Assembly (NCBI GenBank): GCA_902775605.1
Contig: CACYNE010000019.1
Coordinates: 1-46,354, forward strand
Direction of reading: 5' to 3'
DNA from: an uncultured Prevotellaceae bacterium
GTDB lineage: Bacteria > Bacteroidota > Bacteroidia > Bacteroidales > Bacteroidaceae
DNA length: 46,354 nucleotides
Under the pieces are notes generated by a model. That model was not told the DNA's origin, did no database searches, and was given only the letters and a program-made list of their open reading frames with translations. Below are positions 4,674 through 10,867 of the stretch, piece after piece. Within the stretch, counting starts at the first letter, position 1, and each line of letters opens with the position of its first letter. A program made the translations under genes and the position numbers.

Positions 4674-4889
4674 TTATTTCTCTTGATTGAATTCTTCTTG
4701 TCTCACCAACTCCTGTACAGGCACTTCAAGCGCATTGGCTATTGCAATGAGGGCTTCCAGGCTGGGCTGGGTGGTATTGGTGACCCATTTGGAAATAGTT
4801 GCCTGATCCTTTCCAAGCTTATCCGCCAACCACTTGTTGTTTAGGTCGTGTTCTGCGAGAACAACTCTTATACGATTTAACTTTGCCAT
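4674..4889 (-). CDS. XRE-family helix-turn-helix regulator, probable controller of the R-M operon
   Basis: A 71-residue single-domain lambda-repressor-like protein. The helix-turn-helix is plain: NKWLADKLGKDQATISKWVTN (about residues 18-38), followed by the usual SLEALIAIANALEVPVQEL helices. It is the first gene of the leftward operon, 23 bases downstream of a TAACTTTG box. Small XRE proteins at the head of restriction-modification operons are commonly controller proteins that delay restriction until DNA is methylated. That role here is inferred from position and size. Family-level assignment is secure. Confidence 0.93.
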   Translation of the reverse strand: MAKLNRIRVVLAEHDLNNKWLADKLGKDQATISKWVTNTTQPSLEALIAIANALEVPVQELVRQEEFNQEK

Positions 4890-4912
4890 GATAGATTACT
4901 GTTGTTTGACGG

Positions 4913-4920
4913 CAAAGTTA
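4913..4920 (-). promoter_or_regulatory. -7 box (TAACTTTG) of the XRE/R-M operon
   Basis: On the minus strand TAACTTTG lies 23 bases before the XRE ATG, with a TTTG at the expected upstream distance in the GCATTTGTC segment. It belongs to a block that recurs at 7805-7871 in front of another gene. Confidence 0.7.
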
Positions 4921-5107
4921 CAAAAAATAATCGAGACAAATGCTGATATGCTCAAAAAACTCCATAAACAAGCCAAAATTTGATTAAAAGACCAATCTTT
5001 TGACGGATTAATGACATGATTCATGCGTATAATATGTAATGTGTATCTAAAGTATCAGGTTTGTGATTTTTTCTGTGTTTTCTTTTGGTTGTTTGGGGAG
5101 AAATCTG

Positions 5108-5115
5108 TACCTTTG
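5108..5115 (+). promoter_or_regulatory. -7 box (TACCTTTG) upstream of the phosphatase pseudogene
   Basis: A TTTTGG/TTG -33-like element precedes TACCTTTG at normal spacing, and the ATG follows 67 bases later. The same element appears in copy B at 7993-8000. Confidence 0.7.
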
Positions 5116-5182
5116 TAGTGATTTTGTAACATGTTGATTATCAATGGATATTTCCATTTTTGCAACAAGGTTTTAATCGATA

Positions 5183-5658
5183 ATGGATAACGAAGCAAAA
5201 CATAGAATACTATTCGTCTGTCACGGGAACATCTGCCGGAGTCCGATGGCGGAGTTCGTAATGAAGGACTTGGTGAAAAAAGCCGGGCTGGAGGACAACT
5301 TCATGATTGAATCGGCGGCCACCTCGACAGAGGAGATAGGCAACAGCGTCTATCCCCTGCCCGACGGAAATTGGCAGAACACGGTATCGGCTGTTTAGGC
5401 AAGACGGCACGTCAGATGACTCGCTCAAACTATGACCGCTACGACCTGCTGATAGGCATGGACTCGTGGAACATCCGCAACATGCGAAACATCTGCGGTG
5501 GCGACCCAGAAGGGAAGATCGTGATGCTGATGGACTTCACCAAACGGCCTGGTGACGTGGCCGACCCTTGGTACACGGGCAACTTCGAGGCCACTTGGCG
5601 CGACGTGCTGGAGGGCTGTCAGGCACTGCTGGACAGATTGGCGAAAGGCTGCGATTAA
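5183..5658 (+). pseudogene. low-molecular-weight protein tyrosine phosphatase, frameshifted
   Basis: The first frame (5183-5398) encodes the P-loop CHGNICRSP with the catalytic Cys and Arg, then shifts at the C-run 5354-5357. The second frame (from about 5355 to 5658) supplies the rest, including MTRSNYDRYDLLIGMD and the catalytic aspartate loop VADPWYTG. Adding one C to the CCCC run restores the family sequence around YPPARRKLAEHG, giving a full-length protein of about 158 residues. So either a single-base deletion inactivated the gene, a sequencing error occurred in a homopolymer, or the run is phase-variable. The functional enzyme would remove phosphate from tyrosine. It converges on the CDF gene with 22 bases between. 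Confidence 0.9.
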
Positions 5659-5680
5659 GCGAGAACAGAGCGATACAGGA

Positions 5681-7804: not shown

Positions 7805-8052
7805 TTGACGGCAAAGTTACAAAAATTAATCGAAACAAATGCTGATATGCTCAAAAAACTCAATAAACAAGGCTTATAGCTATATGCCTGTTCTTTCATT
7901 TCTGCATTCTACCCCCAGCCTGAATCAAGAAAATGTGGCAAGTTTGTGATTTTTTCTGTGTTTTCTTTTGGTTGTTTAGGTGAAAATATATATACCTTTG
8001 CAGTTATTTTGTAACATGTTGATTATCAATGGTTATTTCCGTTTTTGCGACA
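7805..8052. repeat. divergent promoter block, copy B
   Basis: This is the second copy of the block described at 4906-5166. Its leftward promoter serves the MBL-rubredoxin/CDF pair. Its rightward promoter drives a short transcript without an evident ORF that would end at the hairpin 8140-8174. The two copies flank 5183-7784 as direct repeats about 2.9 kb apart. Confidence 0.9.
7812..7819 (-). promoter_or_regulatory. -7 box (TAACTTTG) of the MBL-rubredoxin/CDF operon
   Basis: TAACTTTG on the minus strand lies 48 bases before the ATG at 7763. The box and its flanks are nearly identical to those of the XRE operon promoter at 4913-4920. Confidence 0.65.
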
Positions 8053-8174
8053 TATGTGCAACATCCGGTGCTAACGCATTGATAGTCAGTTAAAGTCGTA
8101 TTCGAGGAGGTAAAGTAACACAAACTAACAATAATAATTATCCGCATAATCATGGCGATTATGCGGATTTTTTT
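8007..8174 (+). ncRNA. candidate small RNA ending at an intrinsic terminator
   Basis: A TACCTTTG box at 7993-8000 predicts a start near 8007. The only strong stop signal is a hairpin with 12-bp perfect arms (ATCCGCATAATC at 8140-8151 and GATTATGCGGAT at 8157-8168, 5-nt loop) followed by seven T. No convincing ORF lies between. The transcript would begin with the GTAACATGTTGATTATCAATGG segment shared with copy A. It could also be a remnant leader. Confidence 0.4.
8140..8174 (+). terminator. strong intrinsic terminator
   Basis: Perfect 12-bp stem with a 5-base loop (ATGGC) and a run of seven T. The T-run merges into the promoter of the HU-like gene (TACCTTTG at 8176-8183), so one transcript ends where the next is initiated. 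Confidence 0.8.
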
Positions 8175-8205: not shown

Positions 8206-8865
8206 ATGGCACACAAAATAAAATTCTGCATATTTGCTAATCCACTGCCTGACAGTGAGGGGAATACGACATATCAGGTGAGGCATCAGCCCGACGGGAC
8301 GATGGACACGAAGGCGTTTCTTGACCACGTAAAACTTCACGAATCATTCAACACGACTGCCATGAGTTCCGCACTCAGCATTCTCAAGGATGAGATCATA
8401 GAACAGCTGAAGAACAACAAGCGGTTTCGCATTGATGGCATCGGCACGTTCCAGATGAAGGTGGGACTGAAGAACAGCATTGACGAGGACGGCACGCCCA
8501 CGAAGGCTCACTTCACTGATCCTGAGAAGATTACGGCACGCAACGTTGAGGTGACGGGTGTCTCGTTCACGCCAGACAAGAGTCTCATTAAAATGTTGAA
8601 GAGCAACACCTCTACCATAAACTGCAATGGCCGGGGCATGGTGGGCCGCTCAAAACAGTATGAGCGTCAGGAAGTGGTCAACGCACTCAACGCTTATCTG
8701 GCAGAGCATCACTTCATCACGCGCCGCACCTTCCAGACGCTGCTCCATCTCTCCAGTTATGCAGCACAGAAATGGCTCGACCTGCTCATCAACGAAGAGT
8801 TTCCGAAATATACGGCCCAGAAGGAGGGAAACACCATCATCTATCGTAGATTCGGAAAAGAATAA
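8206..8865 (+). CDS. HU-like DNA-binding protein with an extra C-terminal winged-helix-like region
   Basis: Residues ~1-125 match the Bacteroidota HU-related family (IHF/HU fold): an N-terminal strand with residues such as YQVRHQPDGTMDTKAF, the helix STALSILKDEI-like segment, and the FRIDGIGTFQMKVG turn that corresponds to the HU dimer core. Residues ~145-219 (RQEVVNALNAYLAEHHFITRRTFQTLL) look like a small helix-turn-helix/winged domain not present in plain HU. In Bacteroidota such proteins frequently sit beside VapE-type genes, as here (convergent, 95 bp apart). Likely a nucleoid or element-specific DNA-binding protein. An ATG at 8199 is out of frame, so 8206 is the start. Confidence 0.85.
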   Translation: MAHKIKFCIFANPLPDSEGNTTYQVRHQPDGTMDTKAFLDHVKLHESFNTTAMSSALSILKDEIIEQLKNNKRFRIDGIGTFQMKVGLKNSIDEDGTPTKAHFTDPEKITARNVEVTGVSFTPDKSLIKMLKSNTSTINCNGRGMVGRSKQYERQEVVNALNAYLAEHHFITRRTFQTLLHLSSYAAQKWLDLLINEEFPKYTAQKEGNTIIYRRFGKE

Positions 8866-8895: not shown

Positions 8896-8956
8896 AAAAT
8901 GCTCCGAAGGTTCTCTGAAACACCCTGTATAAGGGCCAAGAACTGCGGAGCATTTT
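8896..8956. terminator. bidirectional hairpin between HU-like and VapE-like genes
   Basis: Arms AAAATGCTCCG (8896-8906) and CGGAGCATTTT (8946-8956) are perfect inverted repeats with a 39-nt spacer that contains its own small stem (CCCT...AGGG). It lies between convergent stop codons and so probably ends both transcripts. Its geometry is copied by the inverted repeat at 10673-10733. Confidence 0.65.
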
Positions 8957-8960
8957 CCTA

Positions 8961-10328
8961 TCACATCCTACCTCTCACCTCTACCAAATACCCGTCCGTA
9001 TCGTGCTTTCTTACCCTCGGCACGTTCAGGCGAGTCATATAGCGCCCAAACTGGTTAAGCGTGACACCCGTCATCGTCTTCCGAGACTGCTTCGTCAACT
9101 CACGAATCAAATCACGCCCTTCCATATACACCGCCTGACTTCTATCTGTTGGCACGGCGTAATAAGTCAGGAACAACTGCTCCACCTCGTTCGTCACATA
9201 GTACTGGCGGTTCACGCGCTCCATCTCAGCCTCATCCTCTTTCGAGAAATAATGTGGCAGATGCTGACGCTCCACCTCGTCTATCAACTGCGCATAGAGT
9301 TGATCGTGATGGATGTCCTCCACAGGGATGATGCCCTCAGGCTCCAGCACCAGAAACCGGCGCGACCCGCTACGGTCGGTCAGCAGATGACGTTCATTAC
9401 TGGTGCCCACAAATGAGGCAATACGAGGCAACTGGTTGAAGTTCTTCTTGTAAGCACCGATGAAACTGGGCTTCAGCGTCTGCATCATCGTCTTCAACTC
9501 AGGCATCTTTCTATATGGAATCTTATCGAACTCATCGATATTCACCAAGCCAAACTCCACCATCTTCCGATAAGCATTGCCCTTTGACGACAGCGAGAAA
9601 TCATCTGTATAGTAGTCCGCGATCTCTGGCGGCATCAATGCACGCAGAAACGTACTCTTGTGTATGCCCTGCCTACTGCTCACCAGCAAGAGCATCACCG
9701 CATTGGCATGATCAGCATCACCACCCAGCCATTGCATCACCACGGCACGAAGCCATTTTCGCACCATCCTGTCACAATAGTCAGAACCGTTGATACGACG
9801 TACCAGATCACCCACATAATCCGTTGTCCCATCCCAATGCCCGCGCACCCCATCCAGATAGGCACGGATAGGATGATAATCCACGGCCAACTGACTCTCT
9901 ACGCGCTGCTTCACAAAGCTCGACAGACAAAATATCTCACCGTCGTCCTGCACCTCACAGTTGATGGAGTTCAGTTGCCTACGGTCCACCATCTGCCAAG
10001 GACCGCTACCGTTTTCACTCTTATGCCGATACTCATAGACATCACGCACCACATTATGGCGAAACTCATAATTCGCCGTCACATATTCCGTCATGTCATG
10101 AATAGGCCTCAGCAACGTCTGCTGCCGTTCCTCATAGCGGTTCTGGGTGGCTGGAGCAGATGCCTGGGACTCCCCGTCAGATTCCTTTCTCACGGTCTCG
10201 ATGGCAGCCAATGCCGTTTCCAACTTACCCAGTCTCTCACTCAGCTGAGCGTTCTCACACTCTGCGTTGACAGCCTTCTTTGAACGCCATCCCATCTTTT
10301 TCAGAAATGCCTTAATCTTTATCATCAT
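8961..10328 (-). CDS. VapE-family P-loop ATPase (virulence-associated E, primase/helicase-like)
   Basis: The VapE core is clear: HPIRAYLDGVRGHWDGTTDYV, a P-loop-type motif SSRQGIHKSTFLRAL, a Walker B NIDEFDKI, and VGTSNERHLLTDRSGSRRFLVLE (sensor and arginine region). Family members are P-loop ATPases carried on phages, plasmids and integrative elements and thought to act in element DNA replication. The N-terminal ~100 residues are low-complexity, with no primase domain. The P-loop reads QGIHKST where GIGKST is usual. The start is placed at 10328 (MMIKIKAF), because the TATCTTTG box at 10347-10354 falls inside the 21-residue extension of the longer frame. It would be 455 residues. Confidence 0.9.
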   Translation of the reverse strand: MMIKIKAFLKKMGWRSKKAVNAECENAQLSERLGKLETALAAIETVRKESDGESQASAPATQNRYEERQQTLLRPIHDMTEYVTANYEFRHNVVRDVYEYRHKSENGSGPWQMVDRRQLNSINCEVQDDGEIFCLSSFVKQRVESQLAVDYHPIRAYLDGVRGHWDGTTDYVGDLVRRINGSDYCDRMVRKWLRAVVMQWLGGDADHANAVMLLLVSSRQGIHKSTFLRALMPPEIADYYTDDFSLSSKGNAYRKMVEFGLVNIDEFDKIPYRKMPELKTMMQTLKPSFIGAYKKNFNQLPRIASFVGTSNERHLLTDRSGSRRFLVLEPEGIIPVEDIHHDQLYAQLIDEVERQHLPHYFSKEDEAEMERVNRQYYVTNEVEQLFLTYYAVPTDRSQAVYMEGRDLIRELTKQSRKTMTGVTLNQFGRYMTRLNVPRVRKHDTDGYLVEVRGRM

Positions 10329-10346
10329 ATCTTTCTGTTTTTGTTG

Positions 10347-10354
10347 CAAAGATA
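10347..10354 (-). promoter_or_regulatory. -7 box (TATCTTTG) of the VapE-like gene; decides the start
   Basis: Minus-strand TATCTTTG, 18 bases before the ATG at 10328. It excludes the longer start at 10391, which would place the promoter inside the coding region. Confidence 0.75.
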
Positions 10355-10485
10355 GTAAATTCCGGTGCTGTTTTCCAAGCCTTTTCACCACAAAACGCCC
10401 CTAAATCTGCCTTGTTTTATAGTGCCAATTTACATCATCCAAACTACCATCTTGTTTATCATAAACAACCTATTTACAATCTTTC

Positions 10486-10573
10486 GACTATAGTCATACG
10501 TTTTTACGACTTTAGACATATAATCTTACGACATAAGTCATACTATCTTTTGTCTATAGTCAGAAAAGAAAAA
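10486..10573. repeat. array of four near-palindromic GACTATAGTC sites with exact 22-bp period
   Basis: Cores begin at 10486, 10508, 10530 and 10552: GACTATAGTC, GACTTTAGAC, GACATAAGTC and GTCTATAGTC. The first is a perfect palindrome and the others differ at one to three positions. Units also share a following ATA and an AATCTTAC-like tail, so they are 22-bp direct repeats of palindromes, two helical turns apart. They sit between the leftward vapE promoter (10347-10354) and a rightward TATCTTTG box (10602-10609). They could be binding sites for a dimeric regulator or replication iterons. Confidence 0.85.
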
Positions 10574-10601
10574 ATATGCTGTTTATCACTACCATCTTCC
10601 C

Positions 10602-10609
10602 TATCTTTG
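10602..10609 (+). promoter_or_regulatory. -7 box (TATCTTTG) downstream of the 22-bp repeat array
   Basis: Forty bases after the last repeat core. No ORF with a start codon follows within a reasonable distance, so its product may be a short RNA ending at the inverted repeat 10673-10733. Confidence 0.5.
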
Positions 10610-10615
10610 CAAACG

Positions 10616-10733
10616 AAGAAGGCATCTTGCCACAAAGAAACGCCCAACTTTCAATCCCCTCTCCCACCCTCCAAAATTCTCCGCACCTATCCCACTGGCT
10701 TCCAACGTCTTACCTCCTTTTTCGGAGAATTTT
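10616..10733 (+). ncRNA. candidate short RNA between the repeat array and a large hairpin
   Basis: From the predicted start after 10609, about 118 nt lead to an 11-bp inverted repeat (AAAATTCTCCG at 10673-10683, CGGAGAATTTT at 10723-10733, 39-nt spacer). The RNA would be C-rich and has no start codon in a useful frame. Weak evidence: the hairpin lacks a long U-run on this strand. Confidence 0.25.
10673..10733. repeat. 11-bp inverted repeat with 39-nt spacer
   Basis: The arms AAAATTCTCCG and CGGAGAATTTT differ from those of the 8896-8956 hairpin at one base (AAAATGCTCCG), with the same arm length and the same 39-nt spacer. The two elements bracket the vapE gene and its repeat array. Confidence 0.75.
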
Positions 10734-10867
10734 GCGGATGAAAGTCCACGATGGCAATAAGAAATATATACGAAGAAATGAGATAAGAATCATGGCTACT
10801 AGTTTTTGATTTATTCTCAAACACATAATAATGTTTATAAAGATTTTGTAGTTTCAATTTTCTTGTG

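Follow-up and report, generated by a model that had tools for sequence, protein, structure and literature searches.

The window analysed here, a 46,354-nucleotide stretch of DNA from an uncultured Prevotellaceae bacterium, carries convergent genes for an HU-HIG protein and a VapE-like helicase, both to the left of an array of four 22-nt units (Table 1). The HU-HIG protein belongs to Pfam PF18291 (59.9 bits, cut-off 26.2); profile comparison matches its HU-like domain, at about residues 34–130, to the HU fold (HU 1b8z) and gives weak winged-helix matches (eS25/Zalpha) for its C-terminal part. The VapE protein belongs to PF05272 (95.1 bits, gathering cut-off 25) and matches by profile the structure 7pds, deposited as 'Similar to D. 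nodosus vapE' (E = 6e-27), which we take to be a SaPI Rep and which would make the window VapE a homologue of the SaPI-type helicases. Its AlphaFold2 model has a mean pLDDT of 89.9 and ends in a helix-helix-hairpin segment (404–451) that could be a winged helix. Neither HU-HIG nor VapE matched the PADLOC anti-phage defence models at E ≤ 0.01.

A repeat search of the window found the four units at spacings of 22, 22 and 22 nt, copies 2–4 sharing 73, 77 and 86% identity with copy 1, and bore out the first-pass annotation in its claim of starts at 10486, 10508, 10530 and 10552 with exact 22-bp spacing and shared flanks. The four palindromes that it listed are present as dyads, but the perfect GACTATAGTC occurs only at 10486; the cores at 10508, 10530 and 10552 are the variants GACTTTAGAC, GACATAAGTC and GTCTATAGTC. 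All four dyads are otherwise imperfect, with 5–6 of 8 position pairs complementary in each, and the unit is best described as comprising a dyad of 16 bp and a spacer of 6 bp. The top lag-22 self-match of the array, 32/44, was equalled in 0 of 5,000 dinucleotide-preserving shuffles of positions 10340–10740, the self-match at any lag from 11 to 40 was equalled in 0 of 1,000 shuffles of the same stretch, and the array is the sole lag-22 array scoring at least 28/44 in the 46-kb window. A dyad search of its own genome (≤3 mismatches) was uninformative, giving 32 matches against 67 for a reversed control, and an Rfam scan of seven sources, with a tRNA as its sole hit, returned no match for the array.

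The array adjoins vapE and lies about 1.6 kb from the HU-HIG gene. It had been placed between opposing promoters, and a scan for TAnnTTTG, presumably the Bacteroidetes −7 consensus, agrees, with divergent promoter-like −7 boxes on the minus strand at 10354 and on the plus strand at 10602; the array lies about 120–210 bp upstream of the vapE-side box. Two hairpins with similar stems enclose vapE and the array between them, and within the assembly TGCTCCG..CGGAGCAT is found at a single place. Between 10602 and 10734, the box and hairpin facing away from vapE may mark a short RNA outside the array. Elsewhere in the window, two intergenic blocks that look similar by eye (about 4885–5180 and 7805–8060) bracket cation-efflux and metallo-lactamase/rubredoxin genes, as if duplicated around a gene pair, and a gene start at about 5184–5660, presumably that of a low-molecular-weight tyrosine phosphatase by its motif, has no full-length frame and looks interrupted.

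Table 1. Features at the array locus, in window coordinates.
Feature	Position	Strand	Basis
HU-HIG protein gene, 219 aa, proposed array binder	8206..8865	+	PF18291, HU profile match, covariation
Hairpin AAAATGCTCCG-39-CGGAGCATTTT, between the vapE and HU-HIG 3' ends	8896..8956	.	
VapE-like helicase gene, 455 aa, PF05272 and DUF3874, facultative partner	8961..10328	-	Pfam, profile match, AlphaFold2
Promoter-like -7 box TATCTTTG for vapE	10347..10354	-	TAnnTTTG scan
Array, four 22-bp units	10475..10562	.	Repeat spacing and shuffles
Dyad 1, TTCGACTATAGTCATA, core perfect GACTATAGTC	10483..10498	.	
Dyad 2, TACGACTTTAGACATA	10505..10520	.	
Dyad 3, TACGACATAAGTCATA	10527..10542	.	
Dyad 4, TTTGTCTATAGTCAGA	10549..10564	.	
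Promoter-like -7 box TATCTTTG, directed away from vapE	10602..10609	+	TAnnTTTG scan
Hairpin CAAAATTCTCCG-39-CGGAGAATTTTG, outer side of the array	10672..10734	.	

Arrays with a 22-bp period at vapE, HU-HIG and DUF6078 loci

All six vapE relatives found among the named genomes came from Prevotella or Prevotellaceae, and all six (L002–L007) have, by eye, a four-unit 22-bp array upstream of vapE, with near-perfect copies in L003. We assembled a set of 106 vapE loci from the window, five of these six and 100 places in genomes of the window's genus, of which 60 were covered and 41 gave a match. A lag-22 array scoring at least 29/44 lies upstream of vapE in 54 of the 104 loci having enough upstream DNA, compared with 1/96 far upstream, 6/105 downstream, 0/106 coding and 0/104 shuffled controls. 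The array sequences vary from locus to locus, and 37 of 61 extracted arrays exceed 95% of column shuffles in dyad symmetry. Sorted by neighbouring gene (threshold at least 27/44), arrays accompany 12/13 vapE loci with an HU-HIG neighbour, 21/28 with a DUF6078 neighbour, 6/15 with a shorter HU-like gene and 0/6 with a peptidase-like neighbour, the last taken for prophage. They are also kept at 22 of the 44 loci without any recognised neighbour within about 3.5 kb, and some arrays therefore stand without a visible partner.

Two further kinds of sequence were noted upstream of vapE. Four long VapE genes (L138, L139, L140 and L150) have arrays of 11-bp direct repeats (e.g. TATGTAGTTAT) rather than clear 22-bp dyads, and an own-genome vapE paralogue (L015) has upstream of it, from about 3395 to the end, a frame that we take to resemble a Y1/REP-associated transposase.

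The flanks of vapE are themselves unusual. Inverted matches scoring at least 40 join them at 43 of 104 loci, where 1.2 would be expected from cross-locus pairs, whereas direct-orientation matches of that score number 6; hairpin stems of at least 9 bp are matched at 20 of 106 loci (0.05 expected), and flanking inverted repeats occur at 0 of 28 HU-only loci. Because such repeats flank vapE loci and none were found at HU-only loci, vapE in many cases resembles a cassette that has joined array modules, and at some vapE loci the array lies outside the inverted repeats. The window vapE has the hairpin pair only, with no long inverted repeat scoring at least 40. At L076, L132, L135, L125, L067, L068 and others, vapE sits in cassettes of 1.6–3.2 kb bounded by locus-specific inverted repeats of up to 147 bp, with hairpins and 11-bp sub-repeats; no transposase was noticed there, and this is possibly an undescribed mobile cassette.

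Among plasmid-collection records, 49 of 72,556 contain VapE. Seven of ten loci examined there (Bacteroides, Phocaeicola, Prevotella) reach 28/44 at lag 22; at three of them (L164, L168 and L169) a period of 44, 42 or 21 outscores that lag, and several records named plasmids of Bacteroides and Phocaeicola carry chromosomal-type genes. VapE also occurs in 155 of 50,697 'phage' records, the best-covered of which are short and unannotated, and one scan of viral contigs returned no vapE relative.

A further set of loci was chosen by HU-HIG alone, a family with matches in 96 of the 200 genus genomes covered. These loci (40 places, reduced to 38 by dropping one duplicate of L003 and one frameless place) contain 29 period-22 arrays within 450 bp of HU-HIG, a total of 59 kb, against none in the remaining, more distant 234 kb, a comparison that leaves out 600 bp around vapE genes. 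Arrays of period 21 numbered 6 near and 6 far, and those of period 23 numbered 3 near and 0 far. The repeats had been said to belong with the VapE/HU genes, and the near/far counts favour that claim: arrays recur beside related loci and are not common in unrelated intergenic DNA.

In the full set of 55 HU-HIG loci (these 38 and 17 earlier ones, drawn from the matches listed in sampled genomes, with naively called frames), 43 have an array, 30 of them within 450 bp of HU-HIG and 13, including the window, only by the start of a vapE partner; 12 have no array at the threshold used. The pairing of HU-HIG with an array thus recurs in many relatives, with differing sequences, and it does not depend on vapE. 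Of the 29 HU-HIG loci that lack vapE within 4 kb, a few of them possibly more cut short by contig ends, 21 have an array, and the VapE domain is absent from 3 of 22 genomes searched, each of which has an HU-HIG array. G235, a single contig of 99% completeness, is VapE-free, and its array carries GACTTAAGTC. Reading of frame starts recognised no common motor gene at HU-HIG loci, 29 of which lack vapE within 4 kb.

A consensus core GAC-N4-GTC occurs in 20 of the 43 HU-HIG arrays compared with 1 of the 49 arrays from other vapE loci (expectation from shuffles, 0.25), and in 17 of 39 once the four loci at which the array was picked among candidates partly by sequence (L061, L212, L214 and L232) are left out; it is absent from the consensus of 23 of the 43. 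Chains of three or more such cores are present in 21 of the 43 arrays; all 54 of their spacings are 22 bp, in arrays that had been preselected by lag 22, and 21 of 2,000 stretches drawn at random from these loci contain chains too. Complementarity extends into the central N4, pair 3/6 being complementary in 69% of 74 units.

The placement of these arrays bears on whether they are cooperative operators, at which HU-HIG dimers would control, by repression or activation, vapE, their own gene or the divergent plus-strand transcript. Dimeric regulators typically bind dyads two turns apart, the window array sits between divergent −7 boxes, and in three Bacteroides loci (L162, L163 and L165) the array lies between divergent HU and vapE genes; at the window locus the earlier suggestion of a cooperative operator could still hold. 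At HU-HIG loci without vapE, however, arrays lie on either side of the gene, often past the HU-HIG stop codon, and the frame map places four (L205, L208, L214 and L232) between convergent frames, so that a promoter position is not common to all members. In six vapE loci (L122, L128, L133, L136, L143 and L147) the array starts outside the inverted repeat, more than 400 bp ahead of the vapE frame. Arrays located 3' of genes are hard to square with a plain operator, and we consider this explanation doubtful, though it is the best placed of the alternatives.

DUF6078 (PF19555) forms a parallel family. A 22-bp array scoring at least 28/44 lies within 550 bp of the gene at 14 of the 17 DUF6078 loci that have no vapE in the examined stretch and at 8 of 13 with vapE. 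In L242–L271, DUF6078 stands beside 22-bp dyad arrays, mostly directly 3' of its stop codon. Comparison of HU-HIG with DUF6078 gave no significant similarity (hhalign probability 0.6%, over only 26 columns in the C-terminal parts), and a common origin of the two is unsupported. The most surprising outcome is that two such families have one 22-bp geometry, which, if true, would be dictated by a partner common to both, by the wrapping of DNA or by a C-terminal fold that they share.

Covariation of arrays with their neighbouring proteins

We compared array similarity with protein similarity by Mantel tests, which here correct only partly for shared ancestry and in which arrays follow HU-HIG over 43 loci (r = 0.52, p = 0.0005) and DUF6078 over 34 loci (r = 0.46, p = 0.0003). 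Partial tests over 12 loci gave r = 0.74 (p = 0.0002) for array and HU-HIG given VapE, as against r = −0.32 (p = 0.95) for array and VapE given HU-HIG; without L061, where the scan took another repeat, the values were r = 0.70 (p = 0.0004) and r = −0.21 (p = 0.84). For DUF6078, the corresponding tests over 21 loci gave r = 0.41 (p = 0.002) given VapE and r = 0.10 (p = 0.11) for VapE given DUF6078.

Divided by domain, HU-HIG residues 1–100 retain residual covariation with the arrays given residues 101–219 (r = 0.24, p = 0.0005), and residues 101–219 given 1–100 do not (r = 0.01, p = 0.40). Because the N-terminal residues keep the signal and the reverse test fails, the HU-like N-terminal half appears to be the better candidate reader, although single 30-residue windows differ little (r 0.39–0.54). 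The winged-helix-like C-terminal part was also considered as the reader and is unsupported, the domain test pointing to the N-terminal half.

Two loci of one genome (L125 and L135 in G055) have vapE genes 91% identical in DNA and 96% in protein, yet their arrays are unrelated; L062 and L125, with VapE proteins only 30% identical, have array and promoter DNA in common (74% over 267 bp). Of the 141 pairs of loci in which VapE identity is 60% or more, similar arrays are found in 42%. L067 presents a swap, in which VapE is nearest to those of L076 and L068 and DUF6078 is nearest to the class sharing its array. Judged from such sequence comparisons, protein and array probably diverge together, each locus having its private address.

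The first-pass annotation had offered iterons of a replication origin used by the VapE/HU genes, a proposal of which the HU part is strongly supported. As iterons bound directly by VapE, in the manner of SaPI Rep or SCCmec Cch2, the array would suit the match of VapE to 7pds, the possible winged helix at the end of its model and the presence of lag-22 arrays upstream of 54 of 104 vapE genes. Initiators of SaPI and SCCmec do bind iterons adjoining their genes (PMC7581432). Against this, nearly identical VapE proteins have unrelated arrays and distant ones a common array, the correlation of array with VapE is gone once the neighbour is controlled (r = −0.32 and 0.10, so that the repeats lack specificity for the sequence of the initiator), arrays stand at 21 HU-HIG loci with no vapE within 4 kb, and three genomes have arrays with no VapE domain. 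On these results VapE, at first taken for the reader when arrays were seen at vapE loci, was given up in that role, and origin iterons of this kind are unlikely, more so than an operator.

Two other explanations fare far worse. RNA hairpins or terminators in HU-HIG or vapE transcripts are very improbable: every unit is palindromic and could fold, but arrays lie on either side of the gene, complementarity within the central N4 exceeds what a hairpin loop needs, and Rfam gave no match. Neutral tandem duplication or simple repeats, suggested by the near-perfect copies at some loci such as L003, are hardly credible, location and period being too specific and dyad symmetry too frequent.

A predicted HU-HIG site and its relation to known systems

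Our preferred reading, to which we assign a probability of roughly 0.65, makes the four 22-bp-spaced dyads the predicted cognate site for the HU-HIG protein encoded nearby; VapE iterons and a plain promoter operator fit worse. HU-HIG dimers would read dyads of the type YGAC-N4-GTCR, and the two-helical-turn spacing would set all four dimers on one face of the DNA. The HU fold would then bend or wrap the DNA into a compact nucleoprotein hub upstream of vapE, most likely a recognition or anchoring complex (origin- or centromere-like). A SaPI-Rep-like VapE ATPase could share this hub where present, and at loci carrying vapE, VapE may use it.

More tentatively, these loci may represent a class of Bacteroidales locus-addressing modules, as yet undescribed, in which small DNA-binding proteins (HU-HIG or DUF6078) with private 22-bp dyad arrays that vary between loci act as centromere- or origin-like hubs that VapE cassettes with inverted-repeat borders can capture. 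HU-fold proteins are known as general DNA benders; the multi-copy HU branch seen here appears to own private, co-evolving tandem sites. The annotated but unexplained HU-HIG and DUF6078 proteins, together with the orphan vapE genes of Prevotella and Bacteroides, would become a testable system, and natural swaps of protein and array would permit specificity mapping. We found no account of such arrays in literature titles and abstract beginnings, a coverage that excludes most subscription journals and leaves novelty unproven. In the literature searched, again outside most subscription journals, no paper on DUF6078 was found. The same literature contained no paper combining any two of BT4734, VapE, DUF3874, DUF4248 and DUF6078, or any two of CCDC81, Bacteroidetes and HU superfamily.

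Several known systems resemble parts of this arrangement. With the nucleoid proteins HU and IHF, HU-HIG has the HU fold in common, by profile, but it has an extra C-terminal part and is predicted to bind private, sequence-specific tandem sites rather than DNA in general. The cooperative operator arrays of dimeric repressors likewise consist of dyads two turns apart, near promoter-like boxes as in the window, whereas the arrays described here also occur downstream of genes and between convergent frames. The initiator helicases SaPI Rep and SCCmec Cch2 work with iterons (PMC7581432), and in the window a VapE-type helicase likewise adjoins repeats. The difference is that array sequence tracks the neighbour (HU-HIG or DUF6078) rather than the helicase, and that arrays also occur where the helicase is absent.

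Plasmid centromeres of the parC type are phased repeats. ParR binds the parC of its own family and not that of another, so that this DNA-binding protein and its site co-diverge as a pair (PMC9426499). HU-HIG and its array, associated and covarying as they are, resemble such a pair and may be one. Frame reading recognised no ParM-like motor beside HU-HIG, and its HU fold, its 22-bp dyads and its position at many loci among ordinary chromosomal genes set it apart from ParR–parC.
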